Shown piece after piece: positions 1,850-28,021 of a DNA stretch of 28,340 nt. The DNA is taken from positions 1-28,340 of IMG/VR virus record IMGVR_UViG_3300032289_001132. One strand, 5' to 3'. The position numbers were made by a program, and so were the translations under genes. Numbering within the stretch: the stretch's first letter is position 1; every line of letters starts with the position of its first letter. The stretch is from a virus. Below the pieces are notes generated by a model that saw nothing but the letters and a program-made list of their open reading frames with translations, was not told the DNA's origin and did not search any database.

Positions 1850-1868
1850 AGTTTGGATTGGTTAGTGG

Positions 1869-2108
1869 TTAGATCGGAGCGAAATATCTGCGGTAAGCCT
1901 CGACGGTCAGGATGATGCCACCGCCGGATGCTGGCGCGTGCTTCTCGCGGCGATGGTCGAGCATTTGAATGAGCATGATTTCCTTTGCCGTCTTTGGCCA
2001 GCAGCGGAAAAAGAATCCTTTAAGAGTTCGGTGCTCAAACTTGGTCTGATTGCGTTCGTCAATTACAGGGGTAATGACGCACGGATTGTCTTCGCGTTGG
2101 GTAATCAT
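1869..2108 (-). CDS. small hypothetical protein (79 aa)
   Basis: I do not recognise this protein. It is 79 residues, basic and soluble-looking, with the central segment CVITPVIDERNQTKFEHRTL and a C-terminus ending in VEAYRRYFAPI. Its ATG overlaps the preceding gene's stop in ATGA, and its own stop TAA sits inside the TCTAAC hexamer that recurs through the window. Position between a small early gene and recT suggests an accessory recombination or host-takeover protein, which is only context. Overlap with both neighbours and good frame use support it as real. Confidence 0.65.
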   Translation of the reverse strand: MITQREDNPCVITPVIDERNQTKFEHRTLKGFFFRCWPKTAKEIMLIQMLDHRREKHAPASGGGIILTVEAYRRYFAPI

Positions 2109-2347
2109 GGTTTTTGTGATGTAGTCGTGCGCTCTTCGAAGTTGAGGCGGTGCAACTCGGTGCCGACGCGGATGGCGTAGTGGTCAGAGCTGTATCCTTG
2201 AAAACCAGTTTCCCAATTATCGTTTGGACGTTGGGTTACGGCCGCGATGTCGTAGGATTTATCGTCAGGGATACAATTTAACGGCCCCACCCCGAAGTAT
2301 TCAAAGCCCTCTGGCGGCGCGGGGATCTGTTGTTGTGGTGCGTTCAT
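2105..2347 (-). CDS. small hypothetical protein (80 aa)
   Basis: An 80-residue protein without a recognised family. It begins MNAPQQQIPAPPEGFEYFGV and has an aromatic, proline-rich first half, resembling many short phage proteins of the form PPxGFEYxGxGPL. It overlaps the next gene by ATGA and is itself overlapped by the stop of the 53-residue membrane protein upstream, so the three are almost certainly translationally coupled. No catalytic motif, membrane segment or signal peptide is visible. Confidence 0.7.
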   Translation of the reverse strand: MNAPQQQIPAPPEGFEYFGVGPLNCIPDDKSYDIAAVTQRPNDNWETGFQGYSSDHYAIRVGTELHRLNFEERTTTSQKP

Positions 2348-2505
2348 GGTGTGGAAAGTAGTGCTGCCACGTAAAACGCGGCGATGATCATGATTCCCGC
2401 CAAGACAAACTTGACGGCTGCGGTTTCCGGTTCCTCATACGAGGCTCGGCGTTTGTTCAGTGGTGGCAAGCCTTGGCTTGCGCGTGTTTTCATGGTGTGT
2501 TTCAT
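2344..2505 (-). CDS. small single-pass membrane protein (53 aa)
   Basis: This short frame begins at the ATG at 2505 behind a leader of repeated AACC units (ACCAACCAAACCAAACC) and ends in an ATGA overlap with the next gene. Translation gives a basic N-terminal half (MKHTMKTRASQGLPPLNKRR) and one hydrophobic segment at about residues 31-51 (VKFVLAGIMIIAAFYVAALL), so a one-pass inner-membrane protein is likely. A second in-frame ATG at codon 5 is an alternative start. It is the first gene after the terminator at about 2,600 and heads the recombination cluster. Function unknown. Confidence 0.6.
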   Translation of the reverse strand: MKHTMKTRASQGLPPLNKRRASYEEPETAAVKFVLAGIMIIAAFYVAALLSTP

Positions 2506-2590
2506 GGTTTGGTTTGGTTGGTTGTCTGTGACGCAATCAACCTACCAAAAACCTCCCCGCTCGCAACAACTGTTAGAGACTCGCACAAAC

Positions 2591-2628
2591 GAAAACCCGC
2601 TAGCCTTTATGGGAGTAGGACTAGCGGG
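2591..2628 (-). terminator. Rho-independent terminator after the metallophosphoesterase gene
   Basis: The arms CCCGCTAG (2621-2628, read on the minus strand) and CTAGCGGG (2596-2603) form a perfect 8-bp stem that can extend by CCT/AGG past one bulge. It is followed on the minus strand by TTTTCGTTTG. It lies 30 bp beyond the stop at 2658 and ends the lysis/metallophosphoesterase transcript. The 85 bp between it and the start at 2505 contain one TCTAAC and an A/C-rich leader; I see no convincing promoter there, only weak TTGnnn candidates. Confidence 0.7.
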
Positions 2629-2657
2629 CGGAAAAATTAGAAAGATTTTTCTTTGCG

Positions 2658-3662
2658 TCATGATTTCATGCGGCCAGATAGCCCGCCAATCATGGAACGC
2701 CCCTGGCAAATCGGGATGTTCAGGTGCAGGAAATCCCCGCTTGTCGCGACGATTTGCAAAGCGTAGCCGTGACTCCATGAGGTGGGGTCGCTGTGACGCC
2801 AGAGCGGCTGCTGGATGCAAAGGCAACCTGGATTCCACGCTTTGACCATCCCGATTCCGGGATAAACGACGGTGCTGGAATCCTCTTGATGAGTGTGAGC
2901 ATAGACGACGTTGCCAGCGGTTCGCATCAAGGATGCGCGGGCAGCGTTTTTCCCACCCGAAAGCTGATGGACGAAAAAGCATTTGCCGCGTTTTATCCAC
3001 CCCGGCGGCAGTCCAGCTTCGTGAACCTTGCCAACCTCGAAATAATCGATCCCGCGCTCGGCTAATCGGAGCAAGGTTCGCGGTGATAGCAACTCCGCAA
3101 TGAATCCGGCATCGCGCCCGTTTCGTATCGTCTGATCGACCGCCCATTTTTCGATGCGTTGATCGTGATTGCCTTCGATGTAGAGGATCTTGGCGCGTGG
3201 TGCAGCTTTTGCAACCTCGTCAAGAAACCAATTCGCAGCGGCAATGTCGTCTTGGTAGTTGTAGGATGTTTGGGCGACGTATCCCAGCGTGTGGTATGCG
3301 GCCAAGAATCCGCCGCATTCCACTATGTCACCGTTCAAAATGATTTCATCCGCGTCCCATGTTTTGAGGTCTGCCAGAAACGCGGCAACCGCGTCCTTGT
3401 CCATCTGCGAGCCGTGGAGGTCGTTTGCGATGATTCGCACGAAATCATCCTTGGCACGCTTAGGCGGCGATTTTGGACGCTCTGGCGGGGTGTATTTTGC
3501 GGATTGAAGATCGGAGTATTCCCGAAGCAGGTCGTTTCTATCTCGCGTGACCGCGGTTAGCTCCCGCTGCGTCTTTTCGAGTTTGGCGCGGATCTTGATT
3601 ACGTCGTGGATTGCGGCATCGCCGCTTACCCGTGCGCCTGTTAGATTGTGTCCTTCACTCAT
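2658..3662 (-). CDS. calcineurin-like metallophosphoesterase with N-terminal coiled coil
   Basis: The 334-residue protein carries the complete set of dinuclear-metal phosphoesterase motifs: Asp81-x-His83 (ANDLHG), Asp112 (NGDIVEC), Asn165-His166 (EGNHDQ), His232 (FFVHQ) and His256-x-His258 (YAHTHQ). Before the catalytic domain, residues 20-56 form a charged heptad-like helix (KLEKTQRELTAVTRDRNDL), then a proline/lysine linker to about residue 72. The family hydrolyses phosphomono- or diesters, including nucleic acids and cyclic nucleotides; the substrate here is unknown. It lies between an HTH gene and a terminator, outside the replication block. Possible roles are DNA processing, nucleotide-signal degradation (anti-defence) or RNA repair; only the fold is secure. 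Confidence 0.9.
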   Translation of the reverse strand: MSEGHNLTGARVSGDAAIHDVIKIRAKLEKTQRELTAVTRDRNDLLREYSDLQSAKYTPPERPKSPPKRAKDDFVRIIANDLHGSQMDKDAVAAFLADLKTWDADEIILNGDIVECGGFLAAYHTLGYVAQTSYNYQDDIAAANWFLDEVAKAAPRAKILYIEGNHDQRIEKWAVDQTIRNGRDAGFIAELLSPRTLLRLAERGIDYFEVGKVHEAGLPPGWIKRGKCFFVHQLSGGKNAARASLMRTAGNVVYAHTHQEDSSTVVYPGIGMVKAWNPGCLCIQQPLWRHSDPTSWSHGYALQIVATSGDFLHLNIPICQGRSMIGGLSGRMKS

Positions 3663-4664: not shown

Positions 4665-4894
4665 GGTTTGAGGATTTCGAGTTTCGTGATCGTGGATTTT
4701 ACGATTGTGAACCGCTTTTCGTTTTCTGGAATTGAACGCTCAAAACGGTTAGAATGCGCCCATGAAAGAATTTCATAATGCTTGCGCCCGATCTTGTCAA
4801 TCCTGCCCCAAACCTTGAATGCGTATGGGTCATTACCATCCTCTACGTGGTCAAGAAATTCTATTTCTACGATTGATCCGATTTTTGGTTTCAT
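4661..4894 (-). CDS. small hypothetical protein in the lysis cassette (77 aa)
   Basis: A 77-residue protein starting MKPKIGSIVEIEFLDHVEDG, with a beta-rich first half suggesting a small SH3- or Tudor-like barrel and a charged C-terminus. It has no membrane segment or signal peptide. It is coupled by ATGA overlaps on both sides, to the 40-residue membrane protein upstream and to the amidase downstream. The barrel idea comes from the pattern of hydrophobic residues alone. Function in lysis is not shown. Confidence 0.65.
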   Translation of the reverse strand: MKPKIGSIVEIEFLDHVEDGNDPYAFKVWGRIDKIGRKHYEILSWAHSNRFERSIPENEKRFTIVKSTITKLEILKP

Positions 4895-6767: not shown

Positions 6768-7735
6768 TCCGGCAGTTCGTTGACGATAGTGCGGATAGAG
6801 GTTGATCCGGTGGCGGATGCCACGTTGATGTTTATGGTTGGCATCATTCCGCAATTGGTTCCAATCAACTGCCCGGCAGCGGAAAACGTGATTGCGTTGT
6901 CACCTGAGAAGTCAACAAAAGTGCCATTCGTTCCGCCTGTTAGAGCGGTTTCGGCAATCGGCTTGATTAGTTCTTCAACGTCCGCATCGACGGCAAGCGC
7001 GGCGGTAAAAAGCGATGTGAAATCTGGGGATTGCAATGCGGCGAGAACATCGCCAACGGTTGAAGTGTTTGCGGAGTTGTCGCCGCCGCCCGCGAATGCT
7101 TCGGCGGCTTGTGCTGCTACCGCCGACGCGCCTGTCCCGCTTGCGGTTGCGGTAAATCCGGCCAATGCGTCAACCGCGGCAGCGATCAGGGTTGCGGTGT
7201 TTTTTGTATTGTCGGGATCACCGGCACCATCCGTTCCAAGGGTGATGACCAGGCGCGGGCGGGCGTGCGCAAAACTAAGGCTTACTGCCAAGCTGCTGTT
7301 AATTGTTAGAGGTGCGATGACAATGACGTCCCAAGCGTTTCCTTGCGTGCCTGCCGTTGCTTGCGTAATTGTCACAACTCCATTCGTGCCGGTTCCGATT
7401 GCAACGGTTGCGGCGTCGCCCTCGTCGGTTGCGGTGTTGACAACAATGTCCAGCCCGGTTTTTACAACGGAAAGCGTGGAATTGGGATTAGTTGGAACAA
7501 CAACCGCAATCGTGATCCCGTTGCCAAACGTCCCGCCGTCTGTGGCACTTAGAACGATGGCGTCCGCATCTTCGTTGTCGTCGATTGTTTTTGTCGCTTT
7601 AGCGGGTGCCGCTGTCGCGTATTGAGCTTTCACGACACCGCTGGCAAAAGTCCCGCTGCAAGCAATGGAAAATTCGCGGCCTTCGCTGATGCCTTGGACT
7701 GGATAGTTGCCGTCCGCTGTTAGAAGTCGATTCAT
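6764..7735 (-). CDS. tail structural protein with a duplicated beta-domain
   Basis: The 323-residue protein contains two related segments. The first, residues about 62-112, has GTFGNGITIAVVVPTNPNST then LDIVVNTATDEG. The second, about 128-185, has AGTQGNAWDVIVIAPLTINS then RLVITLGTDGAG. The shared order (GN-x-V/I strand, N-S-T/S-L-V, hydrophobic strand, T/GTD, Thr-rich loop) indicates an internal duplication of a module found in several phage tail and sheath-like proteins. The C-terminal third is alanine/glycine rich with strands. It has no signal peptide. It probably belongs to the tail tip or decorates the virion, judged by position between other tail candidates. Confidence 0.62.
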   Translation of the reverse strand: MNRLLTADGNYPVQGISEGREFSIACSGTFASGVVKAQYATAAPAKATKTIDDNEDADAIVLSATDGGTFGNGITIAVVVPTNPNSTLSVVKTGLDIVVNTATDEGDAATVAIGTGTNGVVTITQATAGTQGNAWDVIVIAPLTINSSLAVSLSFAHARPRLVITLGTDGAGDPDNTKNTATLIAAAVDALAGFTATASGTGASAVAAQAAEAFAGGGDNSANTSTVGDVLAALQSPDFTSLFTAALAVDADVEELIKPIAETALTGGTNGTFVDFSGDNAITFSAAGQLIGTNCGMMPTININVASATGSTSIRTIVNELPE

Positions 7736-7746
7736 GGGGATATTTG

Positions 7747-8808
7747 TTAGGTTGTGGAAGCGATCACCGTGACGTCAACTTGTGTCGCGCCAGTGGTGTT
7801 TGTGAGTTGAATTGAATCAATCGTGGAAAAGATTCCGGATTGGTTGGCAAATTGGATTTTCTCGCCTGCTGTGATTGGCTTGCTCACATCGTCAATATCG
7901 ATGGTGCATCCGCCGGAAACGCAATGGATGAGGATTGCTAGGATTGTTGATGGCGGCTCATACGGATAGCCTTGGAAATCAACTTGAGGCTCAATCCATT
8001 CGGATTCCGCGCCAGGGGTGAAGCTGCCAGACGTCGCCGCGATAGTGCCGGTTCCGTCGTTGCCAGTGGTATTCGCTGCCGTGATGCCGGAAACCAGATT
8101 GAGTGCTGTGATCGCGGACGCGGCGGATGCGGCAAGCGGCGTGACGGTGGGGGTGCCAGTGGCGGGGGATACGGCCGTCCAAGTAGTGACGAGGTCTGGC
8201 GATACCACGTTCTGCGTGGATTGCCAGCGCGTGCTGCCGGAGTGTTTCAGTGTCCATTTTTCAGCATCCCAGAAAACGTAGATTTCAGAGCTTTCGGTGT
8301 CCAATGCGCTTTCCGTGTATGCTGGCTTACCATTTTCCTGCCCTGCGTAAATCAACGGCGGAAAAGTCACCGCGGTAGATCCATTACTGGTAAGAGATCC
8401 GGTCACAATCATCACCCGCTTGTCCCCACTCGTCACCCGTAATTGCGTCCCTACTTTCGCCGCTGTCAGTTGCGTGCGGTCTGTCGTGGAGTCGATCACG
8501 ATTGCCGCCGTCAAAAGCGTTAGATCGGTGCTTTCGATGTCGATGCTGTTATTTGTGCCGGAAGGATTGAGCGTGATTTCGGATGGCGTCGCCGGGTCTG
8601 GAGTGAAACTGGTTGCGAAGTCGCTAAGCGCGACGTCAGCTTCCGCCGCTCCCGTCATGACGGCCCGCCCGGTAAAAACGATGTCACCATCGTCGAAAAC
8701 TATTGACGCGGCGGGGCTTCCTAGTGTCACGCTGCCGGAAACTCCCGGGCGCGTCGCCGTGCCGGTCGCCTGGACTCCAAAAAGGGCTTGCGCGGAGGAA
8801 ATGCTCAT
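7747..8808 (-). CDS. beta-rich tail or receptor-binding protein candidate (353 aa)
   Basis: A 353-residue Ser/Thr/Ala/Gly-rich beta protein without named homology. It begins MSISSAQALFGVQATGTATR and has many short strands, an aromatic central stretch (EIYVFWDAEKWTLKHSGSTR) and a C-terminal domain around residues 276-353 with CVSGGCTIDIDDVSKPI. The composition is typical of tail-tip, fibre or baseplate-periphery proteins. Unlike its neighbours it has its own promoter-like element directly upstream, spaced for leaderless transcription, so it may be expressed to a higher level. The assignment as tail protein rests on position and composition. Confidence 0.62.
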   Translation of the reverse strand: MSISSAQALFGVQATGTATRPGVSGSVTLGSPAASIVFDDGDIVFTGRAVMTGAAEADVALSDFATSFTPDPATPSEITLNPSGTNNSIDIESTDLTLLTAAIVIDSTTDRTQLTAAKVGTQLRVTSGDKRVMIVTGSLTSNGSTAVTFPPLIYAGQENGKPAYTESALDTESSEIYVFWDAEKWTLKHSGSTRWQSTQNVVSPDLVTTWTAVSPATGTPTVTPLAASAASAITALNLVSGITAANTTGNDGTGTIAATSGSFTPGAESEWIEPQVDFQGYPYEPPSTILAILIHCVSGGCTIDIDDVSKPITAGEKIQFANQSGIFSTIDSIQLTNTTGATQVDVTVIASTT

Positions 8809-8843
8809 GCGGGTTTTATCGGTTAGATTCGGTTATTTGTCAA
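8809..8843 (-). promoter_or_regulatory. sigma70-like promoter, leaderless, before the 353-aa tail gene
   Basis: Read on the minus strand: -35 TTGACA (8843-8838), 17-bp spacer, -10 GATAAA (8820-8815), then 6 bp (ACCCGC) and the ATG at 8808. The -35 overlaps the stop of the upstream gene. The spacer holds two direct repeats of TAACCGA, the second within TCTAACCGA. With this spacing transcription would begin at or next to the start codon. Confidence 0.6.
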
Positions 8844-9618: not shown

Positions 9619-10314
9619 CTATTCTTCCTCCGGTGGTGTGAATCCTGCCGGGTGCGTCGGATGCGGCAGCAAGCACTTCACTGCGATTCCATTAAAAAAT
9701 CCAAAGTCGAGAAGCTGCGATGTGACCGTGGCTTGCGTGATCGTCGGGGCGTTAGAAGTCACGTCAATCTTGCCGACGTAAAGCCTAACCTTGGTTTGCT
9801 TCCCGTAGGTTTCCGATTCGTCATCATCATCAATATCAACCTCGTCAAGCGCGTTTGTTGATTGGGCGATTGTCCACCCGCTAACGACGTAATCTTGAGC
9901 CAATACCGGAGGGTCTGCTTCTTCGTCGGCTTCAATGTAGGTGACGTTCGCGGCGAGGTAAATAAACACGGTTCTGTCGCCCGTGCCCGACAGTGTGTCA
10001 GGAGTGTCAAACTCATCAAAACCATCCGCCGTTAGTGCTTCCTCGCCATTTGTTCCATCGGTGATTGTGCTGCGGTCGGATGAAATTTGAAACGTGATTA
10101 CGCCTTCCTCGCCTCTTCCCGTGGTTAGAAAAAACGGGGTGCTATTTTGCGATGATCCGCTAGTTCCGCCGGGATGGTAGAAAATAGGTCTGTCGCGTAA
10201 TTGTTCAATGGCCCTAACGCATTCGCCAAGGCATTTCATAACGCCAGCCATTCCCAAGCGCGGATGAACGCGGCGTGGTGTCGTGATCTTGCCGGGTGTT
10301 AGTGCGCGTTTCAT
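9619..10314 (-). CDS. tail protein candidate with acidic insert (231 aa)
   Basis: I use the ATG at 10314, which overlaps the previous stop as ATGA. The 231 residues include a basic N-terminus (MKRALTPGKITTPRRVHPRL), a short helix (MAGVMKCLGECVRAIEQLRD), a Ser/Thr/Gly linker and beta strands interrupted by a strongly acidic stretch (DEVDIDDDDESETYG) near residue 165, which could bind cations. The end (FGFFNGIAVKCLLP) is hydrophobic. It has no recognised family. Location and coupling suggest a tail-tip protein. Confidence 0.6.
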   Translation of the reverse strand: MKRALTPGKITTPRRVHPRLGMAGVMKCLGECVRAIEQLRDRPIFYHPGGTSGSSQNSTPFFLTTGRGEEGVITFQISSDRSTITDGTNGEEALTADGFDEFDTPDTLSGTGDRTVFIYLAANVTYIEADEEADPPVLAQDYVVSGWTIAQSTNALDEVDIDDDDESETYGKQTKVRLYVGKIDVTSNAPTITQATVTSQLLDFGFFNGIAVKCLLPHPTHPAGFTPPEEE

Positions 10315-11162
10315 GCAGAGTAGAGGAAAGAATCCCATTTGCCTTCTTCCGAAAGCTCAAAAACAACTTCGTTAGTGAATGATGGATTGGCGTTGATTTC
10401 TCCGGTCTGTTCAATGTTGGCGGAAACTAGCAACCAATCCCTCTCGCCGGGAGGTGTCGGCGGTGATCCTGGCGGTGATGTAATTTTTCCAAGCAAGCTC
10501 AAATCAAATCCCGTCAATGTCGTCGATCCAGCCCATCGTTTCGACCAAGTGTAACCTGCCGACCTAAAGCTATTGATTCCCTGAGACAATTTCGTTGCAA
10601 ATTCAATGCCGTCTGAGGATGTAATTGGATCTGGCGTGATGTGTTCCCCGGTGTCCGCCTTAATGCAAACGTAGCCGTCTGGGTCAAGCCAGTCTGGCCC
10701 GTAAATTATTTGCCCGGCAGCTATTTGTGCAAGTGCCGTTCTTTCTTCGGGATCTAACGCTTTGAATTTCCAGTGTTCGCTCAGCGGCGAATCTCCGGTT
10801 TGCCCGCGCATGGAATAGGTTACTTGGAATTCATTCTGATCGGCAATCGCGTTTCCGTTTCCGTCAACGCCTGGAAACCCTCCAAAATTCACGGTCACAA
10901 ACTCCCATCCGCCGGAAACTACGGAGGTGCCGATACTCCTAACCCGTAGGAATGACCATACGGATGCCGCGTCAGGGTCTAGCTCGGTGATGGATTTATT
11001 TATCGCAAAATAGGATCGCGTCACGGCACTATTGAGTGCGCCCTTGACGATCTGAAAAGATTGCGTCGCCGTCCATGCCCCGTTGTCGTCCTGCCGCTGT
11101 GCGTTGAAATCAGCTTGCGGGATGGCCAGTGTGCCTGGCTTTATGAAAATTCTTGCGCTCAT
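10311..11162 (-). CDS. tail protein candidate directly after the tape measure (283 aa)
   Basis: The ATG at 11162 overlaps the tape measure stop as TAATG; an earlier in-frame start lies inside the tape measure gene and is rejected. The 283-residue product starts MSARIFIKPGTLAIPQADFN. It is beta-rich, with an aromatic block (SVWSFLRVRSIGTSVVSGGW), a proline-rich loop (SPPGSPPTPPGERD) and a terminal strand pair (NEVVFELSEEGKWDSFLYSA). In lambda-like order this place holds minor tail or tail-tip proteins that sit at the distal end of the tape measure. No lambda M or L similarity is apparent to me. Confidence 0.62.
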   Translation of the reverse strand: MSARIFIKPGTLAIPQADFNAQRQDDNGAWTATQSFQIVKGALNSAVTRSYFAINKSITELDPDAASVWSFLRVRSIGTSVVSGGWEFVTVNFGGFPGVDGNGNAIADQNEFQVTYSMRGQTGDSPLSEHWKFKALDPEERTALAQIAAGQIIYGPDWLDPDGYVCIKADTGEHITPDPITSSDGIEFATKLSQGINSFRSAGYTWSKRWAGSTTLTGFDLSLLGKITSPPGSPPTPPGERDWLLVSANIEQTGEINANPSFTNEVVFELSEEGKWDSFLYSA

Positions 11163-12457
11163 TACATTCCTGCTGGTTGGGTGTTGTCTGCGATGCGTTT
11201 TAGGTAACTTATCCACTCTTTCGAGTTTGCCGGAAAATTTCCAGTTTCGGTTTGGATTCCAGTCCTAGCGCGGTTTGCCGAGTTTGCGACGCCATCGCGC
11301 ACGATGCGGTTTGGGTTTCGGGATGGGTCTGAGAATTGCGCGAGGTTGATTCGTAGCTCGTTCATAATGTCTTCCATGTCGCGGCGTAAAACCTCGGATG
11401 CAGCTTTTGACGATTCCTTTTTGATATTGTAGCCAGTTACCCGCTCGGTTACCTCAATCCCTTTACCAACCGCAGACCAATCTGGGATCATGTCGATGAT
11501 TCCAGAACCTCCAGAGATAAACGCATTCTTGACGCCTTTTTTCATGGCGGATCCTAGCATGTTTCCAATCGCCATGCCGATATTTGTCAGGTCGCTGGCA
11601 TTACCAGCGAATGACGCCCGCAAAGCGTCGCCTAGTCGCGTGCCAAGGTTTTCAAGCGGTTGCATGATCGACTGAAAGAATGGTTCCATGTCTGCGCCCG
11701 CATCCGTGAACGCGCTAGCAAATCCCATTGCAAACGATTCTTTCATTTGCTGAATTCCGACCGCAACTTGCTTGCTTGCGTCTGCGCCTGCCAATGCCGC
11801 CCCGCCAAGTTGTCCCTCAATCGCTGCCAGTATTAGCGATTGCGCCTCAAGCAACTTGTTAGATTGCGTTAATGCCTTGATCTTGTCTTGCTCTGCTGCC
11901 GTGAACGTGATTCCGCTGCGGCGCAATGACGCCAGCCCTTTGATCGGATCTTCCAACGCTTTGCCAAGTTGCACGGCATTGGATTCCGCAGTTCCGAATC
12001 CTAGCTCGGCCATGTCAAGCGCGAGCATGGTTGACCGGTCAAACGCCCCGCCAACCATGTTGGCTGTGCTCGCCAGCTTTTTGAAAGTGAGCAACTTTGC
12101 AATCGTGGTCTTGATAACCTTTTGATCGACGCCTAGCATCCTCCCGTTAGCATCTGCCATGTCGTTTAGCCTATCGGCAACCTTGCCAGATTCCGCCCCA
12201 AAAACGCCGATAGTCTTGGCTACGTGCGTGACGAGCTGCTCCGAATTGGCGGCTTCCTCGCCCATTTTGTTAATGGCCAATCCTAAATCAATCGCCTTTT
12301 TTGCGGCGGCAATAAGCGCAACTCCGATGCCGACAACCGCCGCGCCAGCAATCCCGGCAGACTTCGCCGCTGTAGCTAGTCCTGCCTTCATGTTGGCAAG
12401 GCCGCGTTTGACTTCCGTGCCGTCAAACGAGATTTTCAGAGTTGTTCCAATGGCCAT
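11162..12457 (-). CDS. tail tape measure protein (short, 431 aa)
   Basis: This long helical protein sets tail length in siphophages. It has an N-terminal strand (GTTLKISFDGTEVKRGL), then a hydrophobic, alanine-rich region at residues 27-60 (AKSAGIAGAAVVGIGVALIA) that could insert into the host membrane, then a long helical body (EEAANSEQLVTHVAKTIGVF; SNAVQLGKALEDPIKGLASL) of the type seen in phage tape measures. At the usual ~0.15 nm per residue, 431 residues predict a tail of roughly 65 nm, much shorter than lambda. It overlaps the frameshift ORF upstream by 22 bp. Confidence 0.85.
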   Translation of the reverse strand: MAIGTTLKISFDGTEVKRGLANMKAGLATAAKSAGIAGAAVVGIGVALIAAAKKAIDLGLAINKMGEEAANSEQLVTHVAKTIGVFGAESGKVADRLNDMADANGRMLGVDQKVIKTTIAKLLTFKKLASTANMVGGAFDRSTMLALDMAELGFGTAESNAVQLGKALEDPIKGLASLRRSGITFTAAEQDKIKALTQSNKLLEAQSLILAAIEGQLGGAALAGADASKQVAVGIQQMKESFAMGFASAFTDAGADMEPFFQSIMQPLENLGTRLGDALRASFAGNASDLTNIGMAIGNMLGSAMKKGVKNAFISGGSGIIDMIPDWSAVGKGIEVTERVTGYNIKKESSKAASEVLRRDMEDIMNELRINLAQFSDPSRNPNRIVRDGVANSANRARTGIQTETGNFPANSKEWISYLKRIADNTQPAGM

Positions 12458-12699
12458 GATCTTTCGCGGTTAGAGATTTCTGCGAATCGCTCGCTCCGGT
12501 CAAATGTTAGATCAATCCCGTGATCATTGCAAGCCATGCGTTCGATCTTGATTCCGTTAGATTGCCAGTAGCACGCAAGCATCGCGTTCGCCTCGTCAAG
12601 CGGCATCTCGCACGCTGTCCGGTAGCTAATGCCTGCCGATACAAGCGCGAAGATCAACCGGGAAAAAACACCGACCATGCCAGCCTGATCCTCTCCCAA
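12436..12699 (-). CDS. T-domain of tail assembly chaperone, reached by -1 frameshift
   Basis: This frame overlaps the end of the G-like gene by 46 bp and lies immediately before the tape measure. The only start codon near its beginning is TTG at 12699, without a ribosome-binding site. A -1 shift at the T6 run at 12668-12663 would fuse the G-like protein (ending VFF) to SRLIFALVSAGISYRTACEM and the rest of this frame, about 78 extra residues. In lambda and many siphophages the analogous GT fusion carries the T domain that binds the tape measure. The relative frame and the position both fit. I treat it as the extension of the gene at 13016 and not as a free protein. Confidence 0.7.
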   Translation of the reverse strand: MGEDQAGMVGVFSRLIFALVSAGISYRTACEMPLDEANAMLACYWQSNGIKIERMACNDHGIDLTFDRSERFAEISNRERSWPLEQL

Positions 12700-13591: not shown

Positions 13592-13610
13592 ATTGTCATT
13601 TGTTAGATCG

Positions 13611-16901: not shown

Positions 16902-16916
16902 TGTTAGATGTTAAAA

Positions 16917-17824: not shown

Positions 17825-18298
17825 TTAGGATTTGATGGAAAGGATTTTTTTGTGCTTGGCGAAGTATTCGGAACGCTCTTGCCCGGCTGGCATAGCTGCA
17901 AACTTGGCGCGGATTTCGGCGTGAGTTTCGCTGGCTTCCGGCTCTGGAATCGGTGCCGTCTGCCCAACGCTTGCTAGCATTGCAATGGCTTGCTCGCCTG
18001 CGGATGCCTTGGCGGCTTCCACTTCCAATTCAAGCGCGGCAACCCTGGCGTTAGATTCGCTGATTGCGGTGGCAAACTCGGAAACTCGGTTTTCAAGATC
18101 GACGATCTTTTCGTCGCGCTCGCCAATGGTCGCGGCATGCGTGGCGATGGTTTCTTGCGCGGTGGCAAGTTCGCTTTGCAAAGCGTTGACCTGCTCGGCG
18201 GAGGCGTTGGCGTTGCTTTCAAGCTCGTCGATACGTGCTTGCGCGGCGACGAGTTCTTCGGGCGCGGCGGATTTGAAGATTGAGGCAAGGAAGCTCAT
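17825..18298 (-). CDS. nested in-frame scaffold protein (internal start in the protease gene)
   Basis: An ATG at 18298, codon 212 of the protease frame, would give a 157-residue protein starting MSFLASIFKSAAPEELVAAQ, made of the coiled-coil scaffold region alone. The arrangement copies lambda C/Nu3, where an internal start in the protease gene yields the scaffold. Here a TTGACA/TAGTTC pair lies directly before the ATG. A scaffold is needed in many more copies than the protease, which gives a reason for separate expression. Expression from this start is inferred, not shown. Confidence 0.6.
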   Translation of the reverse strand: MSFLASIFKSAAPEELVAAQARIDELESNANASAEQVNALQSELATAQETIATHAATIGERDEKIVDLENRVSEFATAISESNARVAALELEVEAAKASAGEQAIAMLASVGQTAPIPEPEASETHAEIRAKFAAMPAGQERSEYFAKHKKILSIKS

Positions 18299-18931
18299 GC
18301 CCGAAGAACTAACAGATTCGGTTAGATTGTCAAGCGACTTGTTAGACGCGGATTTTTCGGTTATGAATCCAAGCTCGAAAGCCTGCGACTCATTCATCCA
18401 TGTTTCCGCAAGCATGAGTTGGCGAATCTTTTCCTTGTCGTATCCGCTGCGCTTGGCGTAGGTGGTTGCAATGTCGTTAGAAATGCTTTCGAGCAAGTCG
18501 CCCGTGCGCTTCATGGCGCGGGCGTCTCCCCATACGGCGGAGGATGCTTCATGGATCATGATGCGGGCGTTTTCCGCCATTGTGCGCCGGTCGCCAGCCA
18601 TAAGAATCACGCTGCCCATACTAGCGGCGATTGAGTCAACGTGAGTGTGAATCATGACGCCGCGATCACTCATGCCACGCAATGCGTTGTAGATTCGCTG
18701 ACCTTCAAACACGCTGCCGCCGGGAGAGTTGATTTCGACGGTGACGGTTTCCAAGGCGTCATCCGCTGCACATACGATGTCGCCAATCCGCATTCCAGCG
18801 GCGACAGCATCCGGCCCGTAAAGCCGTTCCAACTCTTCAATGAGCTTGTCGGCGGATTCCTTGTAGACGCCGCTATTGAGCTTCAACTTGCCCTTGCGGT
18901 TTTCGATTTGGAGAAATTCAGTCTTCATCAT
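17825..18931 (-). CDS. prohead protease, ClpP/S49-like, with C-terminal scaffold domain
   Basis: Numbering from the ATG at 18931 (368 aa; an ATG at 18961 and one at 18928 are alternatives). The protease part, to about residue 195, has the NSPGGSVFEGQRIYNAL oxyanion segment, catalytic Ser104 in SIAASMGS and His127 in RIMIHEAS, matching ClpP-fold head maturation proteases. Residues 212-368 are a long acidic coiled coil (VAAQARIDELESNANASAEQ; IGERDEKIVDLENRVSEFAT), the expected scaffold, ending in KHKKILSIKS. The protease would cut portal, scaffold or coat during head maturation. It overlaps the end of the portal gene, and an internal start with its own promoter-like element may give the scaffold alone. 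Confidence 0.88.
   Translation of the reverse strand: MMKTEFLQIENRKGKLKLNSGVYKESADKLIEELERLYGPDAVAAGMRIGDIVCAADDALETVTVEINSPGGSVFEGQRIYNALRGMSDRGVMIHTHVDSIAASMGSVILMAGDRRTMAENARIMIHEASSAVWGDARAMKRTGDLLESISNDIATTYAKRSGYDKEKIRQLMLAETWMNESQAFELGFITEKSASNKSLDNLTESVSSSGMSFLASIFKSAAPEELVAAQARIDELESNANASAEQVNALQSELATAQETIATHAATIGERDEKIVDLENRVSEFATAISESNARVAALELEVEAAKASAGEQAIAMLASVGQTAPIPEPEASETHAEIRAKFAAMPAGQERSEYFAKHKKILSIKS
18299..18334 (-). promoter_or_regulatory. intragenic promoter with CTAAC-N7-GTTAG dyad, before nested scaffold start
   Basis: Minus strand: TTGACA (18334-18329), 16-bp spacer, TAGTTC (18312-18307), 8 bp, ATG at 18298. TTGACAATCTAAC is identical over 13 bases to the element before the gene at 20666, and both continue into CTGTTAGTT. 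CTAAC and GTTAG arms lie 7 bp apart (18310-18326). The element lies inside the protease coding frame. Confidence 0.55.
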
Positions 18932-20387
18932 CTTCGTGATTTTGAGGGGTTTCCTCGCCATTTTGCGGCGGGGTTTCGTTCGGGGTGATTAGATACATTT
19001 CGCGGGGGTCAATCGCCACGCTGTATTCCGCCTCTGCCTTTTGGCGGGCAATGGTGCGCATGGCGGCGATACGGGCGCGTTTATCCAAAAACGATTGCAG
19101 ATTGTTGCCGCGCCCTTCGATGATTTCGTCGAGGTTAACGTAGCCTGTCATCAAGCCTTCGCGCTCTGCCTTGGCTTCGCGCCCATCGTCAACCGTTAGG
19201 CGGGCAGGCATGGAAAAATCCCACATTGTGGGGGATTCCACGGCGGGGACAAGTCCACGCTGAGCAAAGACGCTGTAAGCCCATGCAAACGCCCGTTTTG
19301 AGTGCCACAAAATGCCTTGCTTTCGGCGAATGGCGTTGCGCGCTTTGACAATCTCGGCGCGTTCCGCTGTGCCTTGTCCCGGCCCTTTCCATGCGAGCGT
19401 AGTTGCCCATTCCGCACCGACGATAGCGTTGCGAATCAAGCGATCTTGGAAGGATTCCCATTCTTGACCGGGGTTTTGATGGGTGATTTGGTCGATCCGG
19501 TGTTGCCCGTCTCCAGGCTGATAATAAACGCCGCCGGGGAAGTTTTGAGACACCATCGCGCCCGCGCCTGTTAGATTTTCAACGTCATTCAGCGGGTCGT
19601 CAATGTCCGGCCCGCCCGTTTCATTGTTGATGATCAAGTGGAGCCGCGAAACGATCACTTGGCGCATCCGTTCATCTTGGATGCTAGCCATGCAATCCTT
19701 GATGTCTTCCAAGGCGTGCGAGAAAAGCGGATACCCGCGCCCTTGTTCGGCGTAGGCAGGGTCGAAGAAATGGATGACGTCGGATGCTGGCACTTGCTTG
19801 TATTCGCCGCCTCCAATCTCGAAAAGGTATCCGGCCGGCCTGCCGCTTGCGAAGTAAATGACGCCATCGCGGAGTCGGTATCCGTCAAACGTGCCACCCA
19901 CAACCCGGTCGCCCATCGTGCCGCTGTGGCATCGATGCGAGGGGACAAGCTGGATGCGCGGGAATTTGTCATCCCCCACGACCATGATCCAGAAACAGTC
20001 GCCGTCTCGATCCATTGAAACGCTTGTCAAATAAAGCATCTGCCACCAGTCAAACACCCCTCCGCGAATGTCGCATTGCGGATACCAGACGCTCTCCATG
20101 TATTTCGCCGCCTGTGCGCCGCGTTCGGGGTTTCCGCTGCCAACGTAGGATGGCAACCATGCCGCGCCAACGCTGAAATCGGCACGTTGATGCGCGATGG
20201 TTTTGATAACGCCAAAATTGAAAAACAATCGGTTAGAAAGGGCGGCGAGCGTGCGCCTGTCGCTTGTCGTAATCAGCTTGTCAATGTCGCCAATCAAACG
20301 GGCGTATTGCGGCCCGCGATAACGCGATTGATCCGCCGCGTGTGCGAAGCGGTAGGGGGTGCCAAATTGATCTAGGATTGTCGCCAT
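18918..20387 (-). CDS. portal protein, lambda gpB family
   Basis: The 489-residue protein is a lambda-type portal, the dodecameric DNA channel at the head vertex. Characteristic segments are an N-terminal arm (RGPQYARLIGDIDKLITTSD), DGDCFWIMVVGDDKFPRIQL, the VPASDVIHFFDPAYAEQGRG motif in the middle (VIHxF...RG), SFQDRLIRNAIVGAEWATTL, and GLMTGYVNLDEIIEGRGNNL near the C-terminus. The tail is acidic. The length fits the family. The ATG is three bases after the stop of the gpW-like gene (TTC-TAA-CCC-ATG), so a TCTAAC hexamer includes that stop. It is followed directly by the protease. Confidence 0.9.
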   Translation of the reverse strand: MATILDQFGTPYRFAHAADQSRYRGPQYARLIGDIDKLITTSDRRTLAALSNRLFFNFGVIKTIAHQRADFSVGAAWLPSYVGSGNPERGAQAAKYMESVWYPQCDIRGGVFDWWQMLYLTSVSMDRDGDCFWIMVVGDDKFPRIQLVPSHRCHSGTMGDRVVGGTFDGYRLRDGVIYFASGRPAGYLFEIGGGEYKQVPASDVIHFFDPAYAEQGRGYPLFSHALEDIKDCMASIQDERMRQVIVSRLHLIINNETGGPDIDDPLNDVENLTGAGAMVSQNFPGGVYYQPGDGQHRIDQITHQNPGQEWESFQDRLIRNAIVGAEWATTLAWKGPGQGTAERAEIVKARNAIRRKQGILWHSKRAFAWAYSVFAQRGLVPAVESPTMWDFSMPARLTVDDGREAKAEREGLMTGYVNLDEIIEGRGNNLQSFLDKRARIAAMRTIARQKAEAEYSVAIDPREMYLITPNETPPQNGEETPQNHEDDED

Positions 20388-20390
20388 GGG

Positions 20391-20666
20391 TTAGAAATAG
20401 GTTTTGGCTACGCGGGAAATAGGCTCGCCGAGGTCGAACATTTTGACGACAAGGCGCAACATTTGCAGACGGTTTCCCTGCGTCATCGGCCCAGACGTGG
20501 TGAATGTTTGCCCGTTGACGGTGCCGCTAGTCACCATTTGAGACGCGGCAGGATCGGTTGCAATAGCCAAGGCGAGGCTTGCAAATTCCGCACGAATGGC
20601 GGTAACGGACGCGGGGGTGTCCTTGGTCGCCTCATAGATCGTGCGTGCCGCGCCGAAAATGTCCAT
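20391..20666 (-). CDS. small head-module protein, gpW-like candidate (91 aa)
   Basis: A 91-residue protein starting MDIFGAARTIYEATKDTPAS, helical at both ends, with a short strand pair in the middle (GTVNGQTFTTSGPMTQGN). The middle resembles the beta-hairpin of small gpW-like head-tail joining proteins, and the location between terminase and portal matches gpW in lambda. It is longer than lambda gpW, so this is a candidate only. The ATG is preceded by a TTGACA promoter with leaderless spacing that would begin the portal-protease-capsid transcript. Confidence 0.55.
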   Translation of the reverse strand: MDIFGAARTIYEATKDTPASVTAIRAEFASLALAIATDPAASQMVTSGTVNGQTFTTSGPMTQGNRLQMLRLVVKMFDLGEPISRVAKTYF

Positions 20667-20701
20667 GCGCGGAAACTAACAGCGCGCTGTTAGATTGTCA
20701 A
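20667..20701 (-). promoter_or_regulatory. head-operon promoter containing an 18-bp palindrome (probable operator)
   Basis: Minus strand: TTGACA (20701-20696), 17-bp spacer, TAGTTT (20678-20673), 6 bp CCGCGC, ATG at 20666. The perfect palindrome CTAACAGCGCGCTGTTAG (20676-20693) fills the spacer and enters the -10. A factor bound there would compete with RNA polymerase. The same CTAAC/GTTAG arms occur in two other promoters of the window. Confidence 0.65.
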
Positions 20702-21190: not shown

Positions 21191-22978
21191 TCACTCGTTT
21201 TCCGCCTCCGCCGTCTCGTCATATTGAAACAATTTGTAAAGCAAACCCTGCCCAACGGCGTAATACATACAGTCCCAAAGGTGGTTTTGCGCGTGCGATT
21301 TGCCCGGCGTCCAGATCCATTCCGTTCCTTGATCCTTGCCAAGGTTGCGCTTTTCCCTTCGCTCGCAAGTCATGTGCTCGCGGAAGGAGTCGGAAACGTC
21401 GCTCGGCAGTTCAATCGCGCCCTCGCGTTGCGTCATACGGTAGAGCGTGTCCTTGATGGGGTTTGAAGCTAGGCGGCGATACGTCGCAACCTTGCCATCC
21501 GGCAGCATCTTGCGCGACTTGTCGGAAAATAGACGTTCGACAAATCGCCCGTTTCCGATTGGCCAGCGGAAGGATCGTTCATCGCGGCCAAGAACGCCAT
21601 GCCAGCCGTTAGTCGCCGCAATGCTCGCCATGCGGTCAATCTCAAATCCGAAGTCCAGCCAAACGCGATGCGGGGCGATGCCGTAGCTCGCCGCAATGTC
21701 CACAAGTTCTTGCTCGTTTCCGCCGCGTGATTGCGTGCGACCTTCGCGGAGCACTTTTAAAACGCCACCCGGTTTCCATGTCGTGACGCAATACCAAAAA
21801 TGATCCTTGCCTGCGTCAATCGTCATGAAACGCGCTAGGCCGATGTCCCGGCCCTTATGCCGCATCTGGATTTCTGCCGACAATCTCTCTTTGGTGGCAA
21901 CGTCTGCCATCGAATACGCCGCGCTTGTCGAAAGTTCGATTGGCGAGTCTGTCATTTCATCGCTCCAAAATTCGGCGCGGTGTTTCTGCCGCCATTGTTG
22001 CAACGGCATGTAATCGCCAAGGTTTTTGGCTTCCATCGCGTTCAAAAACGCCAAAACGTCATCCGCCATCGGTATCCACCACACTGCGCCACGGTCAACC
22101 TGGAATCCTCGCCTTTCCGCCGGTGCGTCCTTCCCGCGAATGTATCCGCCTTTGCCGTTGCCCATGTTAGATTCTGCCAACGCCCGGCGCGATTGCGTCG
22201 TGTCGGGATGTTCTTTCCCGCACGATGGACAAACTCGGCGAGCGGTTTTTGCTGTCGCGTCCTTGTCGCCTTCAACGGTGTCGAATTTCACTTGATCCCA
22301 GTCGAAAGGTTGTTCGCTTCCACACTCACAACGCCAGCCAAAGCGGCTCATGTCAGTCGCTTTCCATTGCGCGTCAAACTCGCCATCCGAAAACCCGCCT
22401 TGGCTCACCATGTATTCCTTGCGGTTCCATCGGTTGTGGTGTCGCGCTTGAAACTCGCGCACAAGACCCGCTTTCCATGCCCAAACCTCGTCACCGTAAA
22501 GCCAACGCATTGAGAGTTCTTGGAAGCTACTCATGTTCGCGCCGGTCACAAGGAGCGGCATGTGGGGAAACATGATCTCGGTCTTGCGGACTTTGTTCCG
22601 GTCTGTCGGAAGCAAGGCCGCCAGCGGCTCGCATTGCCGGATTGCAGGCATCAATCGAGACTCTGCCCAAAAGCCGGATGTCGCATCCGTTTGCGAGGCG
22701 TAAAGCATGGGGCCTGGATCTTCGGAAACGACATAGCAGGTCAACGCTTCCGCCATCGTCGATTTTCCGCTGCCGGTAGGCGCGAGAACGACAACTTGCC
22801 GAGTCTCAATGTCGGCGGCGCATTCCATCGGGGCTTTCCACCATGGGGTTTGCGAGGGATCAAAAAACGATGAACGCTCGGAGTTGGCAATGCGAACGTG
22901 CTTTGCCGCCCATTCCCACGGCGGAAGACCTGTCGGCGGGCGCAATGCTGCGCGAAATGATTCATAGACTGCTTTCAT
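21191..22978 (-). CDS. terminase large subunit, GpA family
   Basis: The 595-residue packaging motor and nuclease fits phage lambda GpA-type terminases. The ATPase part has Walker A APTGSGKS (residues 66-73) and Walker B-type LYGDEVWAW with Asp163-Glu164. A zinc-ribbon insert uses Cys217, Cys219, Cys250 and Cys253. The nuclease part shows Asp388 (FMTIDAGKDH), Asp442 (WLDFGFEID) and Asp569 (NHLWDCMYYA), the acidic triad of RNase H-like terminase nucleases. It overlaps the small terminase gene by ATGA. GpA-type motors usually cut at cos sites, so unit-length packaging is likely; I did not find a cos site. Confidence 0.93.
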   Translation of the reverse strand: MKAVYESFRAALRPPTGLPPWEWAAKHVRIANSERSSFFDPSQTPWWKAPMECAADIETRQVVVLAPTGSGKSTMAEALTCYVVSEDPGPMLYASQTDATSGFWAESRLMPAIRQCEPLAALLPTDRNKVRKTEIMFPHMPLLVTGANMSSFQELSMRWLYGDEVWAWKAGLVREFQARHHNRWNRKEYMVSQGGFSDGEFDAQWKATDMSRFGWRCECGSEQPFDWDQVKFDTVEGDKDATAKTARRVCPSCGKEHPDTTQSRRALAESNMGNGKGGYIRGKDAPAERRGFQVDRGAVWWIPMADDVLAFLNAMEAKNLGDYMPLQQWRQKHRAEFWSDEMTDSPIELSTSAAYSMADVATKERLSAEIQMRHKGRDIGLARFMTIDAGKDHFWYCVTTWKPGGVLKVLREGRTQSRGGNEQELVDIAASYGIAPHRVWLDFGFEIDRMASIAATNGWHGVLGRDERSFRWPIGNGRFVERLFSDKSRKMLPDGKVATYRRLASNPIKDTLYRMTQREGAIELPSDVSDSFREHMTCERREKRNLGKDQGTEWIWTPGKSHAQNHLWDCMYYAVGQGLLYKLFQYDETAEAENE

Positions 22979-24218: not shown

Positions 24219-24247
24219 TTGTTAGACCGCTGTTAGAAAGTTGTCAA
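24219..24247 (-). promoter_or_regulatory. promoter-like element before the HNH / small basic gene
   Basis: Minus strand: TTGACA (24247-24242), 17-bp spacer, TAACAA (24224-24219), 13 bp, ATG at 24205. Two TCTAAC hexamers lie in and next to the spacer. The -10 is weak, and the distance to the start differs from the leaderless set. Confidence 0.35.
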
Positions 24248-24788: not shown

Positions 24789-24800
24789 TGTGTTTCTTGG

Positions 24801-25499
24801 TTAGATTTTCACTCTATCATGCGCGACAACATGCTTCATGCCCGTCGTCAACCTCCGAATGATAGCCTGCGCTTGCGCTGAGTCACGCCCATTTTGAGCC
24901 AAAATCTTCTCCTTCAATTCTGCGCCAGTGATCTGCATCGTCCATATTGTCGGGAGGTGGTTCCCGGTGCGCGATTCTAGCAGGTTGTAAAGCGCGGTTG
25001 ACCATGACTCTGTAAATTTGGCTTGTGCGATATCGTCGATCACAAGCAAAGGCAAGCTGTGCATGGCGTCGTTCCACTTGCGTTTCGGCCCGGTCATGCC
25101 GTCATCAGCTTTCGCCGCGTCGATGCTGATTTGCCGGATTTCGGTTCCGCTCCACCATCGAAACGGCATTTTAAGCCATGCGACAAGGCAGGCCACGGCG
25201 CATGATTTACCAAGCCCGCTAGTGCCGATCACACCGATTCCGTTAGGAAACTTGAAACGATCCCATCCCATCACCCCGTCAAGTTGCGGCGGGATTTTAG
25301 ACGGAACGGCATTGCGGTAGTTTGCCGGCATGTTTTCAAGCATCGCCTGCCATCGGCGGTGCTGCTCTTTAGCATCCCATTCGGCGGCCGCTATCGGTTC
25401 GCAAGCGTCGCAGATTGGAACGATGCCTGGTAAATCCGCGCATGGCTCGTATTCAACGTGAACGCCACATCGCGGGCATGGGTTTGTGATCGTTTTCAT
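24801..25499 (-). CDS. DnaC/IstB-like helicase loader ATPase
   Basis: The 232-residue protein is an AAA+ ATPase that would load the host replicative helicase at the phage origin. A zinc-binding N-terminus uses Cys8, Cys11, Cys30 and Cys33 (CPRC...CDAC). Walker A is GTSGLGKS at residues 92-99, Walker B LLVIDD at 151-156, and the sensor region is IWTMQITGAEL near 185-195. Arg215-Arg216 in QAIIRRLTTG are arginine-finger candidates. It pairs naturally with the replication initiator at 27909. The gene overlaps the preceding one by ATGA. Confidence 0.88.
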   Translation of the reverse strand: MKTITNPCPRCGVHVEYEPCADLPGIVPICDACEPIAAAEWDAKEQHRRWQAMLENMPANYRNAVPSKIPPQLDGVMGWDRFKFPNGIGVIGTSGLGKSCAVACLVAWLKMPFRWWSGTEIRQISIDAAKADDGMTGPKRKWNDAMHSLPLLVIDDIAQAKFTESWSTALYNLLESRTGNHLPTIWTMQITGAELKEKILAQNGRDSAQAQAIIRRLTTGMKHVVAHDRVKI

Positions 25500-26800: not shown

Positions 26801-27166
26801 TTAGGCGTTTGCAGTTTCCCCGCCCGCAGTCATAACCCCATCTAGCGAAAGGGACACGGGCGGGGGATTTTCTCCGATTTCGGCACTCGCCGGGCGGGGA
26901 AGGTGGTTTGAAAGCAGATTGCGGCCATTTTGCGTTAGAATCCACGTTGAAGGGTTTGGGCGCGTCCCGTGCTGTTTGACTAGCAAGGCTTCCGCCAATC
27001 GGCGCAACGTCGAATACGCGGTGGTTAGCGGTATGGCTGTGCAATCGGTTACTTCGTTTGTGCTGCATTGCCCGCGCTCTTCGATCACAAGCAGAATTTC
27101 CAAGTCATGCAAGCTGGAAATCCCGGCGCGGCGGAAATGGTGGATTTGTTGGCGGAGTGTTTTCAT
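26801..27166 (-). CDS. winged-helix (MarR-like) DNA-binding protein
   Basis: I start at the ATG at 27166 (MKTLRQQIHHFRRAGISSLH), five bases after the previous stop; the longer frame runs over the end of the replication gene. In the 121 residues a winged helix is clear: LHDLEILLVIEERGQCSTNE, then VTDCTAIPLTTAYSTLRRLA as the recognition helix region, and LVKQHGTRPNPSTWILTQNG as the wing. The last 35 residues are proline-rich. It could control the early operon or assist replication. A plausible operator is the inverted repeat at 27,970, but nothing in the sequence proves the link. Confidence 0.75.
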   Translation of the reverse strand: MKTLRQQIHHFRRAGISSLHDLEILLVIEERGQCSTNEVTDCTAIPLTTAYSTLRRLAEALLVKQHGTRPNPSTWILTQNGRNLLSNHLPRPASAEIGENPPPVSLSLDGVMTAGGETANA

Positions 27167-27171
27167 GGTGG

Positions 27172-27909
27172 TTAAAATGGCAATGGATCGACCATGCCGT
27201 GTTCTTGTTGGTTGAGGTCGCCGGGGCGGCGGTGTGTAGATGTGTTTCTGCGGTTCCATGTCCTGACGGTGGCCCTCCAGTCTTTGATGCTTGTCTTGCC
27301 CCTTATCCATCCGTTCGCTTCATAGTGATCAATGAAGTTGTCAGCTTCAAGAAACGGGGGAGAGAGAGTTGCGCCGTAGGCGGCAACTTCTGCGACTGTC
27401 GGCTTTTGAAATCTCTCTCTCTTAGGTTTGTCTTTAGTTTCTGCTTTTGTATCTGATTCTGCTTCTGCTTCTGCCTCTGTATGTGTGCATTTTGCTGATT
27501 GTAATTGACTGTCATTGACTGTCATTGACATGTCATTGACATTTTCACGCTTGGTTGAGCGGTATTCGGCTTGTTTGCGGCGGTTGTATTCCCTGCGTTC
27601 TTCGGCAGACAGCAACGCCCGGTATTTTCCGTGGTTCAAAAGCCGCCACCCGCCGTCAATCTCTTGGATGCGCCTGCCCTCATGGTCTTTCGTCCGGCTG
27701 TATTCGTCCGGTGATTCCAAGCAGGCAAGTGCTGCGTTGCATTGCTGCAAAGTGACGCCTGCCCGCTTGGCAAGCCCTGGAATGCTCGCGTGAACCTCGC
27801 CGTTGCGGTCAACCATTGCAAGCATGGTGATCCAGACAACCTTTGTTTCTAGCGGTTCTTGCCAGATTGTGCTGTCGAGGATGCTGTTGAATAGCTTTGT
27901 GAACTGCAT
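27172..27909 (-). CDS. replication initiator / replisome organiser (DnaD- or lambda O-like)
   Basis: The 245-residue protein has an N-terminal winged helix of the phage replisome-organiser type (MQFTKLFNSILDSTIWQEPL; IPGLAKRAGVTLQQCNAALA), a Lys/Arg-rich region (ERREYNRRKQAEYRSTKREN), a low-complexity acidic linker (EAEAEAESDTKAETKDK) and a C-terminal domain with NFIDHYEANGWIRGKTSIKD followed by WRATVRTWNRR. This last block is common in phage primosome proteins. It would bind the origin and hand the helicase loader to it. The DNA coding for its linker holds palindromic tandem repeats, as in lambda O. A near-consensus promoter lies upstream. Confidence 0.82.
   Translation of the reverse strand: MQFTKLFNSILDSTIWQEPLETKVVWITMLAMVDRNGEVHASIPGLAKRAGVTLQQCNAALACLESPDEYSRTKDHEGRRIQEIDGGWRLLNHGKYRALLSAEERREYNRRKQAEYRSTKRENVNDMSMTVNDSQLQSAKCTHTEAEAEAESDTKAETKDKPKRERFQKPTVAEVAAYGATLSPPFLEADNFIDHYEANGWIRGKTSIKDWRATVRTWNRRNTSTHRRPGDLNQQEHGMVDPLPF
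27501..27541 (-). repeat. tandem 10-bp palindromic repeats inside the initiator gene, origin candidate
   Basis: Plus-strand units are GTAATTGACT, GTCATTGACT, GTCATTGACA, then one extra T and GTCATTGACA. TGTCAATGACA is a perfect inverted repeat around its central base. A second short tandem, TTCTGC three times, lies at 27457-27474. Repeats within an initiator gene often form the replication origin. Confidence 0.55.
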
Positions 27910-27944
27910 GGCGGGATTCTAGCGGATTGTGTATTTAATGTCAA
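27910..27944 (-). promoter_or_regulatory. near-consensus sigma70 promoter of the replication operon, leaderless
   Basis: Minus strand: TTGACA (27944-27939), 17-bp AT-rich spacer, TAGAAT (27921-27916), 6 bp CCCGCC, ATG at 27909. It is the best promoter in the window, with a perfect -35, ideal spacing and a -10 with five of six consensus bases. Transcription should begin at or beside the start codon. Confidence 0.8.
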
Positions 27945-27969
27945 GACTTTTGTTGACTGTGTATGTTGC

Positions 27970-27987
27970 GTAACGGTTAGGCGTTAC
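27970..27987. promoter_or_regulatory. inverted repeat upstream of the replication promoter, operator candidate
   Basis: GTAACG (27970-27975) and CGTTAC (27982-27987) are perfect 6-bp arms around GTTAGG. The element is about 26 bp upstream of the -35. No T-run follows on either strand, so a protein site is more likely than a terminator. Confidence 0.4.
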
Positions 27988-28021
27988 AAGTCAAGCGGGG
28001 ATTCGGTTAGATTTGATCCAG

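Follow-up and report, generated by a model that had tools for sequence, protein, structure and literature searches.

Why does a small phage genome carry one six-letter word dozens of times on one strand and almost never on the other? The window analysed here is the whole of a 28,340-base virus contig (IMG/VR record IMGVR_UViG_3300032289_001132, positions 1 to 28,340), nearly all of it covered by open reading frames (ORFs) on the minus strand. The hexamer TCTAAC occurs 40 times on that strand, the sense strand of all genes, against a single plus-strand copy (start at 10753); the rough 40 to 1 of a preliminary description of this DNA is therefore exact. The strand bias of the complement, GTTAGA, is the most extreme among all hexamers. 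The data reported below strongly support the conclusion that the exact word TCTAAC is selected as nucleic acid and not by way of the encoded protein.

An exact word in excess

The division into coding sequence (CDS) and non-coding DNA is based on 46 hand-picked minus-strand ORFs, not on gene-finder output. These ORFs contain 27 copies of TCTAAC. A global shuffle of synonymous codons leads to an expectation of 3.7 ± 1.9 copies, with a maximum of 11 in 500 shuffles, and a null that keeps the protein, the codon counts and the dinucleotides affords 3.55 ± 1.94, with a maximum of 10 in 150. Under this second null TCTAAC is the most deviant hexamer (z = 12.1), followed by a runner-up at z = 6.1. The other 13 copies are found in 1,367 bases of non-coding DNA, where base composition predicts 0.5. 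CTAAC is a frequent stop context in this genome (eight stops), which could raise the non-coding expectation by one or two copies, but not to 13. The enrichment, about 7-fold within the ORFs and about 25-fold outside them, is confined to the sense orientation. Given these expectations, the 5–7 copies per strand that the preliminary description had allowed for by chance are too many. Its proposal that selection acts on DNA or RNA rather than on protein holds, since the codon-preserving shuffles, which it had named as the way to overturn the proposal, fall far short of the observed count.

In the sense direction, none of the 18 one-mismatch neighbours of TCTAAC departs from expectation by more than 2 standard deviations, which argues that recognition of the word is exact. 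Selection on the nucleic acid is also the reading that fits the coding and the non-coding copies jointly. Finally, since the antisense form GTTAGA occurs once in the sense direction against 1.7 expected, the strand bias reflects a gain of the sense orientation and not a loss of the opposite one.

Reading frames, flanks and distribution

Both coding frames that avoid a stop are in use, as had been noticed before: 12 of the 40 sense copies read TCT-AAC and 15 read N-CTA-AC, while 13 do not lie wholly within the ORF set. In four of these 13 the TAA of the motif serves as the stop codon of an ORF; the stops at 1868, 20390 and 24800 had been pointed out previously, and 24232 is added here. A comparison of CTA usage, suggested in the preliminary description, shows this codon to be raised where it completes the word. 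It accounts for 15 of 27 Leu codons with T before and Thr after, for 9 of 33 without the preceding T, and for 87 of 675 overall. Ser-Asn pairs are encoded as TCTAAC in 12 of 30 cases. The sites are as follows (coordinates, strand, context).

1868..1873, minus, provides the TAA stop of the upstream ORF
2572..2577, minus, non-CDS
3640..3645, minus, frame N-CTA-AC
4748..4753, minus, frame TCT-AAC
6939..6944, minus, frame N-CTA-AC
7305..7310, minus, frame N-CTA-AC
7719..7724, minus, frame N-CTA-AC
8519..8524, minus, frame N-CTA-AC
8822..8827, minus, non-CDS, start codon 13 nt further on
9751..9756, minus, frame TCT-AAC
10124..10129, minus, frame N-CTA-AC
10753..10758, plus, sole opposite-strand copy
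11858..11863, minus, frame TCT-AAC
12469..12474, minus, frame TCT-AAC
12506..12511, minus, frame N-CTA-AC
12556..12561, minus, frame TCT-AAC
13602..13607, minus, non-CDS, start codon 10 nt further on
14141..14146, minus, frame N-CTA-AC
14276..14281, minus, frame N-CTA-AC
14408..14413, minus, frame N-CTA-AC
14914..14919, minus, frame N-CTA-AC
15277..15282, minus, frame N-CTA-AC, ligase-like gene
15822..15827, minus, non-CDS
16421..16426, minus, non-CDS, in dyad CTAAC-N8-GTTAG (16408-16425)
16755..16760, minus, frame TCT-AAC
16903..16908, minus, non-CDS, past the capsid gene
17232..17237, minus, frame TCT-AAC, major capsid gene, GCGAAC in sister phages
18050..18055, minus, frame TCT-AAC
18321..18326, minus, frame N-CTA-AC, in dyad CTAAC-N7-GTTAG (18309-18325)
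18341..18346, minus, frame TCT-AAC
18476..18481, minus, frame TCT-AAC
19570..19575, minus, frame N-CTA-AC, portal
20232..20237, minus, frame TCT-AAC, portal
20390..20395, minus, provides a TAA stop
20689..20694, minus, non-CDS, in 18-nt palindrome CTAACAGCGCGCTGTTAG (20676-20693)
22166..22171, minus, frame TCT-AAC, terminase
24221..24226, minus, non-CDS, start codon 8 nt further on
24232..24237, minus, provides a TAA stop
24800..24805, minus, provides a TAA stop
26934..26939, minus, frame N-CTA-AC
28006..28011, minus, non-CDS

The sites span the whole window at a near-random spacing of about 0.7 kb (Kolmogorov–Smirnov (KS) p = 0.34; coefficient of variation of the gaps 0.87), and no preference for a position within genes was seen. 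In a post hoc comparison, the region of the structural genes (6764-20700) is twofold enriched (30 versus 10 sites, p = 0.001). A or T is favoured before the motif and T follows it in 0 of 40 copies (P about 0.002), so the recognition site perhaps extends to (A/T)TCTAAC(not T). A reading as promoter -10 elements was rejected, as the site logo contains no -35 element at a fixed spacing.

Three dyads of the type CTAAC-N7/8-GTTAG, also noticed post hoc, fall on TCTAAC sites and contain 3 of just 10 sense GTTAG words; random placement of GTTAG never produced this set in 20,000 trials. One of the three is a perfect 18-base palindrome (20676-20693) that precedes the start of an ORF. A protein of 60 residues encoded nearby (20713-20895) resembles, by eye, a ribbon-helix-helix DNA binder and has a 63% identical relative in contig G418. 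In predicted RNA accessibility the sites are indistinguishable from permuted hexamers (p = 0.91), a result of little weight that does not favour binding to single-stranded RNA at these sites.

The phage, its relatives and its likely host

Homology of the window proteins points to a small tailed phage. Its packaging and head genes code for a GpA-type terminase large subunit, a small subunit, a portal, a ClpP-like head protease and a major capsid protein. Other genes code for a tape measure, an amidase endolysin, a metallophosphoesterase, a DnaC-like loader and a DNA methyltransferase. Recombination is represented by RecT and a PD-(D/E)XK exonuclease, and further nucleic-acid functions by a ligase-like adenylation domain and two HNH/endonuclease VII-like nucleases. 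The combination of GpA-type terminase, RecT and exonuclease implies that linear and concatemeric DNA ends belong to the life cycle of this phage. The ligase-like protein (15249-15782, 177 residues) resembles ATP-dependent DNA ligases, apparently consists of the adenylation domain only, and is 67% identical to the version in the sister phages G009 and G012.

The viral contigs used for comparison were retrieved with terminase, capsid, RecT, exonuclease and methyltransferase queries and were long enough to test; the search tools may omit close relatives. None of the contigs retrieved in this way approaches the TCTAAC excess of the window. The longer records of about two dozen relatives have top words of their own, with z of 5 to 9, and no TCTAAC excess of this size. 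The closest cultured relative found, Verrucomicrobia phage P8625 (NC_029047; host Puniceicoccales sp. IMCC8625), has the same one-way gene order and a 68% identical capsid protein, but its TCTAAC count, 2 to 3, is not in excess. The excess is likewise absent from G003, G007 and other relatives, and weak in G005 and G012. The nearest sister phages (G005, G012 and G009) have a 91% identical capsid, with roughly 27–67% identity in other shared genes. They show a weak excess of CTAAC, with 25 copies in coding DNA against 13 expected, and the strands of G005 stand at 36 to 3. Since the sisters are mostly 95–98% identical to one another over shared parts, they count about once.

The relatives do not keep the sites at the same positions. 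The site in the capsid gene reads GCGAAC in the sisters, so at least one gain altered an amino acid. The hexamer seems to have been sharpened and multiplied in the lineage of the window, perhaps from a weaker preference for CTAAC, a direction of change that we infer. Among the lineages examined, the strong excess is lineage-specific. The preliminary description had taken absence of the bias from close relatives as grounds for giving up the signal. The nearest relatives available do show only the weak CTAAC excess, but at about 35–67% protein identity in most shared genes they mark the signal as lineage-specific rather than unreal; searches with the portal and the tape measure brought up no closer relatives. 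The phage methyltransferase was rejected as the driver, as relatives with an 87–92% identical enzyme lack the motif. A scan of the wider collection for triple TCTAAC returned at least 80 loci and is no census. The best candidate among the loci listed (L312), a short viral contig, owes its copies to several long collagen-like Gly-X-Thr repeat proteins, and others are local repeats.

The capsid protein is also 68% identical to a copy in an Opitutae metagenome-assembled genome (MAG), and a short contig from a MAG labelled Flavobacteriales holds a match at 76%. Because the capsid protein resembles the copies in P8625 and the Opitutae MAG, the host probably belongs to the Opitutae part of Verrucomicrobiota. 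TCTAAC is less frequent than its reversed control CAATCT, which has the same letters, throughout 241 Verrucomicrobiota genomes and throughout 177 genomes from the order to which the nearest capsid gene belongs; the ratio in the window is 1.37. About 0.4 Mb of pooled DNA from this order contains 45 coding copies against 42.5 expected after codon correction, and the window's own host may differ. The highest ratios followed up came from AT-rich genomes, codon-corrected counts show no excess, and an apparent plus-strand bias in the 177-genome matches was an artefact of listing order. A Chi word common to the host order or phylum, one of the options raised at the outset, is not supported by these candidate host genomes; the actual host may have a private word.

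Other words in the window and its relatives

The tetramers GTAC and TATA do not occur on either strand of the window (1-28340), with 56 and 30 copies expected in CDS. Many related phages (G005, G012, L041, L095, L106, L009 and L013) likewise have no or almost no GTAC, and TATA is also at zero in L009 and L013. This pattern suggests a shared avoidance of restriction or regulatory origin. The six-base palindromes CCGCGG, GCGCGC, GCCGGC, CCATGG and CAATTG are strongly avoided across the window. GGATCC exceeds codon expectation in P8625 (L248; 20 versus 5.4) and in L095 (12 versus 3.6), which is unusual for a palindromic restriction site. The word TGTCGTG in L219/G411 was considered as an equivalent of TCTAAC among the relatives and rejected as a local 5-bp tandem array; TGTCG-type 5-bp repeats occupy 14501-15639 of this contig and occur in the related contig L222/G414 as well.

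What may read the word

We tentatively favour the explanation that TCTAAC is an asymmetric site read one way by a putative protein specific to the phage lineage or to a narrow host. Such a reader would most likely act directionally on phage DNA rather than on RNA. It could be an end-degrading nuclease for which the word is a Chi-like switch, an enzyme that nicks one particular strand, or a polar roadblock, for example a stoperator-type repressor. With many loosely placed copies about 0.7 kb apart, the number of sites would matter more than each position. In the cos phage lambda, Chi acts in the orientation of the late-gene sense strand, and the sense orientation of TCTAAC matches it. The near-random spread, the use of both frames and of the gaps, and the lack of sites shared with relatives point the same way. 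It is conceivable, if unlikely, that the phage encodes the TCTAAC reader itself. The word, written genome-wide in one direction, would then be a self-made equivalent of Chi or a guide for packaging or replication, evolving fast between relatives and without host precedent.

Several points weigh against the proposed DNA-directed reader. The protein is putative, postulated from sequence data. All genes point in one direction, so the polarities of DNA and RNA coincide and action on the two is inseparable here; the preliminary description was correct in saying this of transcription and replication. Six bases are short for a specific DNA-binding protein. The non-coding enrichment just before start codons could also suit a role in RNA or translation, but the gaps are so small that closeness of sites to starts is nearly unavoidable. 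Lastly, the RNA-accessibility result is weak evidence.

A signal at the level of RNA, with UCUAAC in phage mRNA bound by a protein or a small RNA and acting in decay, processing, antitermination or translation, is a serious contender that we nevertheless consider rather unlikely. All 40 minus-strand copies are in transcript sense, their density peaks in the intergenic gaps and the structural operon, and the three dyads could form hairpins. Against this stand the even distribution within genes, an accessibility not above that of permuted hexamers, and a compact genome with mostly short gaps, in which nearness to starts is expected. Restriction pressure that holds an asymmetric Type III-like site in one orientation, as with T7 and EcoP15I, is a highly improbable cause. 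The T7 genome, with genes all in one direction like those of the window, does contain an asymmetric hexamer in a single orientation at all of its 36 EcoP15I sites (PMC3874151). Our recount gave 0 to 36, with sense CAGCAG at 0 against 9.5 expected. In T7 one orientation is thus depleted and the other mildly up, whereas the window shows a pure 7-fold excess of the sense form with a normal count of the opposite one. Restriction selection does not create additional sites, and the inverted copy at 10753 would by itself permit head-to-head cleavage. The orientation-dependent restriction effect proposed earlier is therefore argued against. Codon usage, codon-pair preference or a mutational hot spot is also very hard to credit. 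CTAAC is mildly up in the sister phages too, but shuffles that preserve protein, codons and dinucleotides do not approach 27, 13 copies are non-coding, and the source words one mutation away are undepleted.

Three known systems would be specific forms of the one-way reader that we favour. There is a small chance that TCTAAC is a Chi-like word of the host, at which an AddAB/RecBCD-type nuclease is attenuated, and that a phage without an inhibitor accumulates the protective orientation. The length of the motif is within the Chi range, and its excess inside and outside genes goes beyond what composition predicts. The known Chi words are rich in G, which TCTAAC is not, and it is neither enriched in the candidate hosts nor in excess in other phages of the group. 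Temperate enterobacterial phages with a recombinase and without a RecBCD inhibitor over-represent Chi, a short asymmetric directional word, at a median observed-to-expected ratio of 2.5 (Bobay et al. 2013, PMC3784561); the window encodes RecT and an exonuclease, but its enrichment is 7–25 fold and almost wholly one-stranded. A function in programmed nicking of one strand, known from phages T5, phiKMV and tf, is improbable. The nick motif of tf is found on one strand only (PMC3517423), with 14 copies to none in our count of its 9-base form, and phage Rembedalsseter has 13 nick motifs on a single strand (PMC11780129). Like TCTAAC at 40 to 1, these motifs are exact, asymmetric, dispersed and present in coding and non-coding DNA, and the window encodes the ligase-like adenylation domain and the two nucleases. 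In contrast to 9 bases in 13–14 copies, kept across about 60 distantly related phages, the window has a 6-base word that is not conserved in relatives; 40 nick sites would be many, and relatives carry the ligase gene without a strong excess. Equally improbable is a stoperator-like system, in which elongating transcription would be halted by a phage repressor bound at one-way sites scattered over the genome. A stoperator measures about 13 bp, against 6 for TCTAAC. Those of Cluster A mycobacteriophages are asymmetric and dispersed, for the most part point one way with respect to transcription, and change in sequence from one related phage to another (PMC6550527). TCTAAC resembles them in orientation (40 to 1), dispersal (KS p = 0.34) and drift among relatives, and the ribbon-helix-helix-like protein adjoins the motif in the 18-nt palindrome. 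The Cluster A sites have a known repressor, whereas the window proteins that were searched include no recognisable integrase or immunity repressor, in a window that may be incomplete; P8625 is annotated without either.

TCTAAC resembles Chi, the nick motif and the stoperator in being an asymmetric and dispersed word, but it shows only part of the defining features of each, so we file it under none of them. Among the papers searched, none ties such a role to TCTAAC or GTTAGA. Of the options of the preliminary description, the restriction effect is argued against and the host-wide Chi-like word gains no support from the candidate hosts; a signal with polarity in DNA, one at the level of RNA, and sites for a phage factor stay as candidates.

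Implications

The combined test used here, which compares a word with its neighbours, applies a null that preserves protein and dinucleotides, and splits the count by strand, is applicable to all one-way phage genomes and would show how common such words are. Chi, nick motifs and stoperators are dispersed one-way words too, and each of them has opened the way to a mechanism of its own. TCTAAC is a clean case, as it is letter-exact and strong in one lineage, and either the small genome of the phage or a narrow host should encode its reader.

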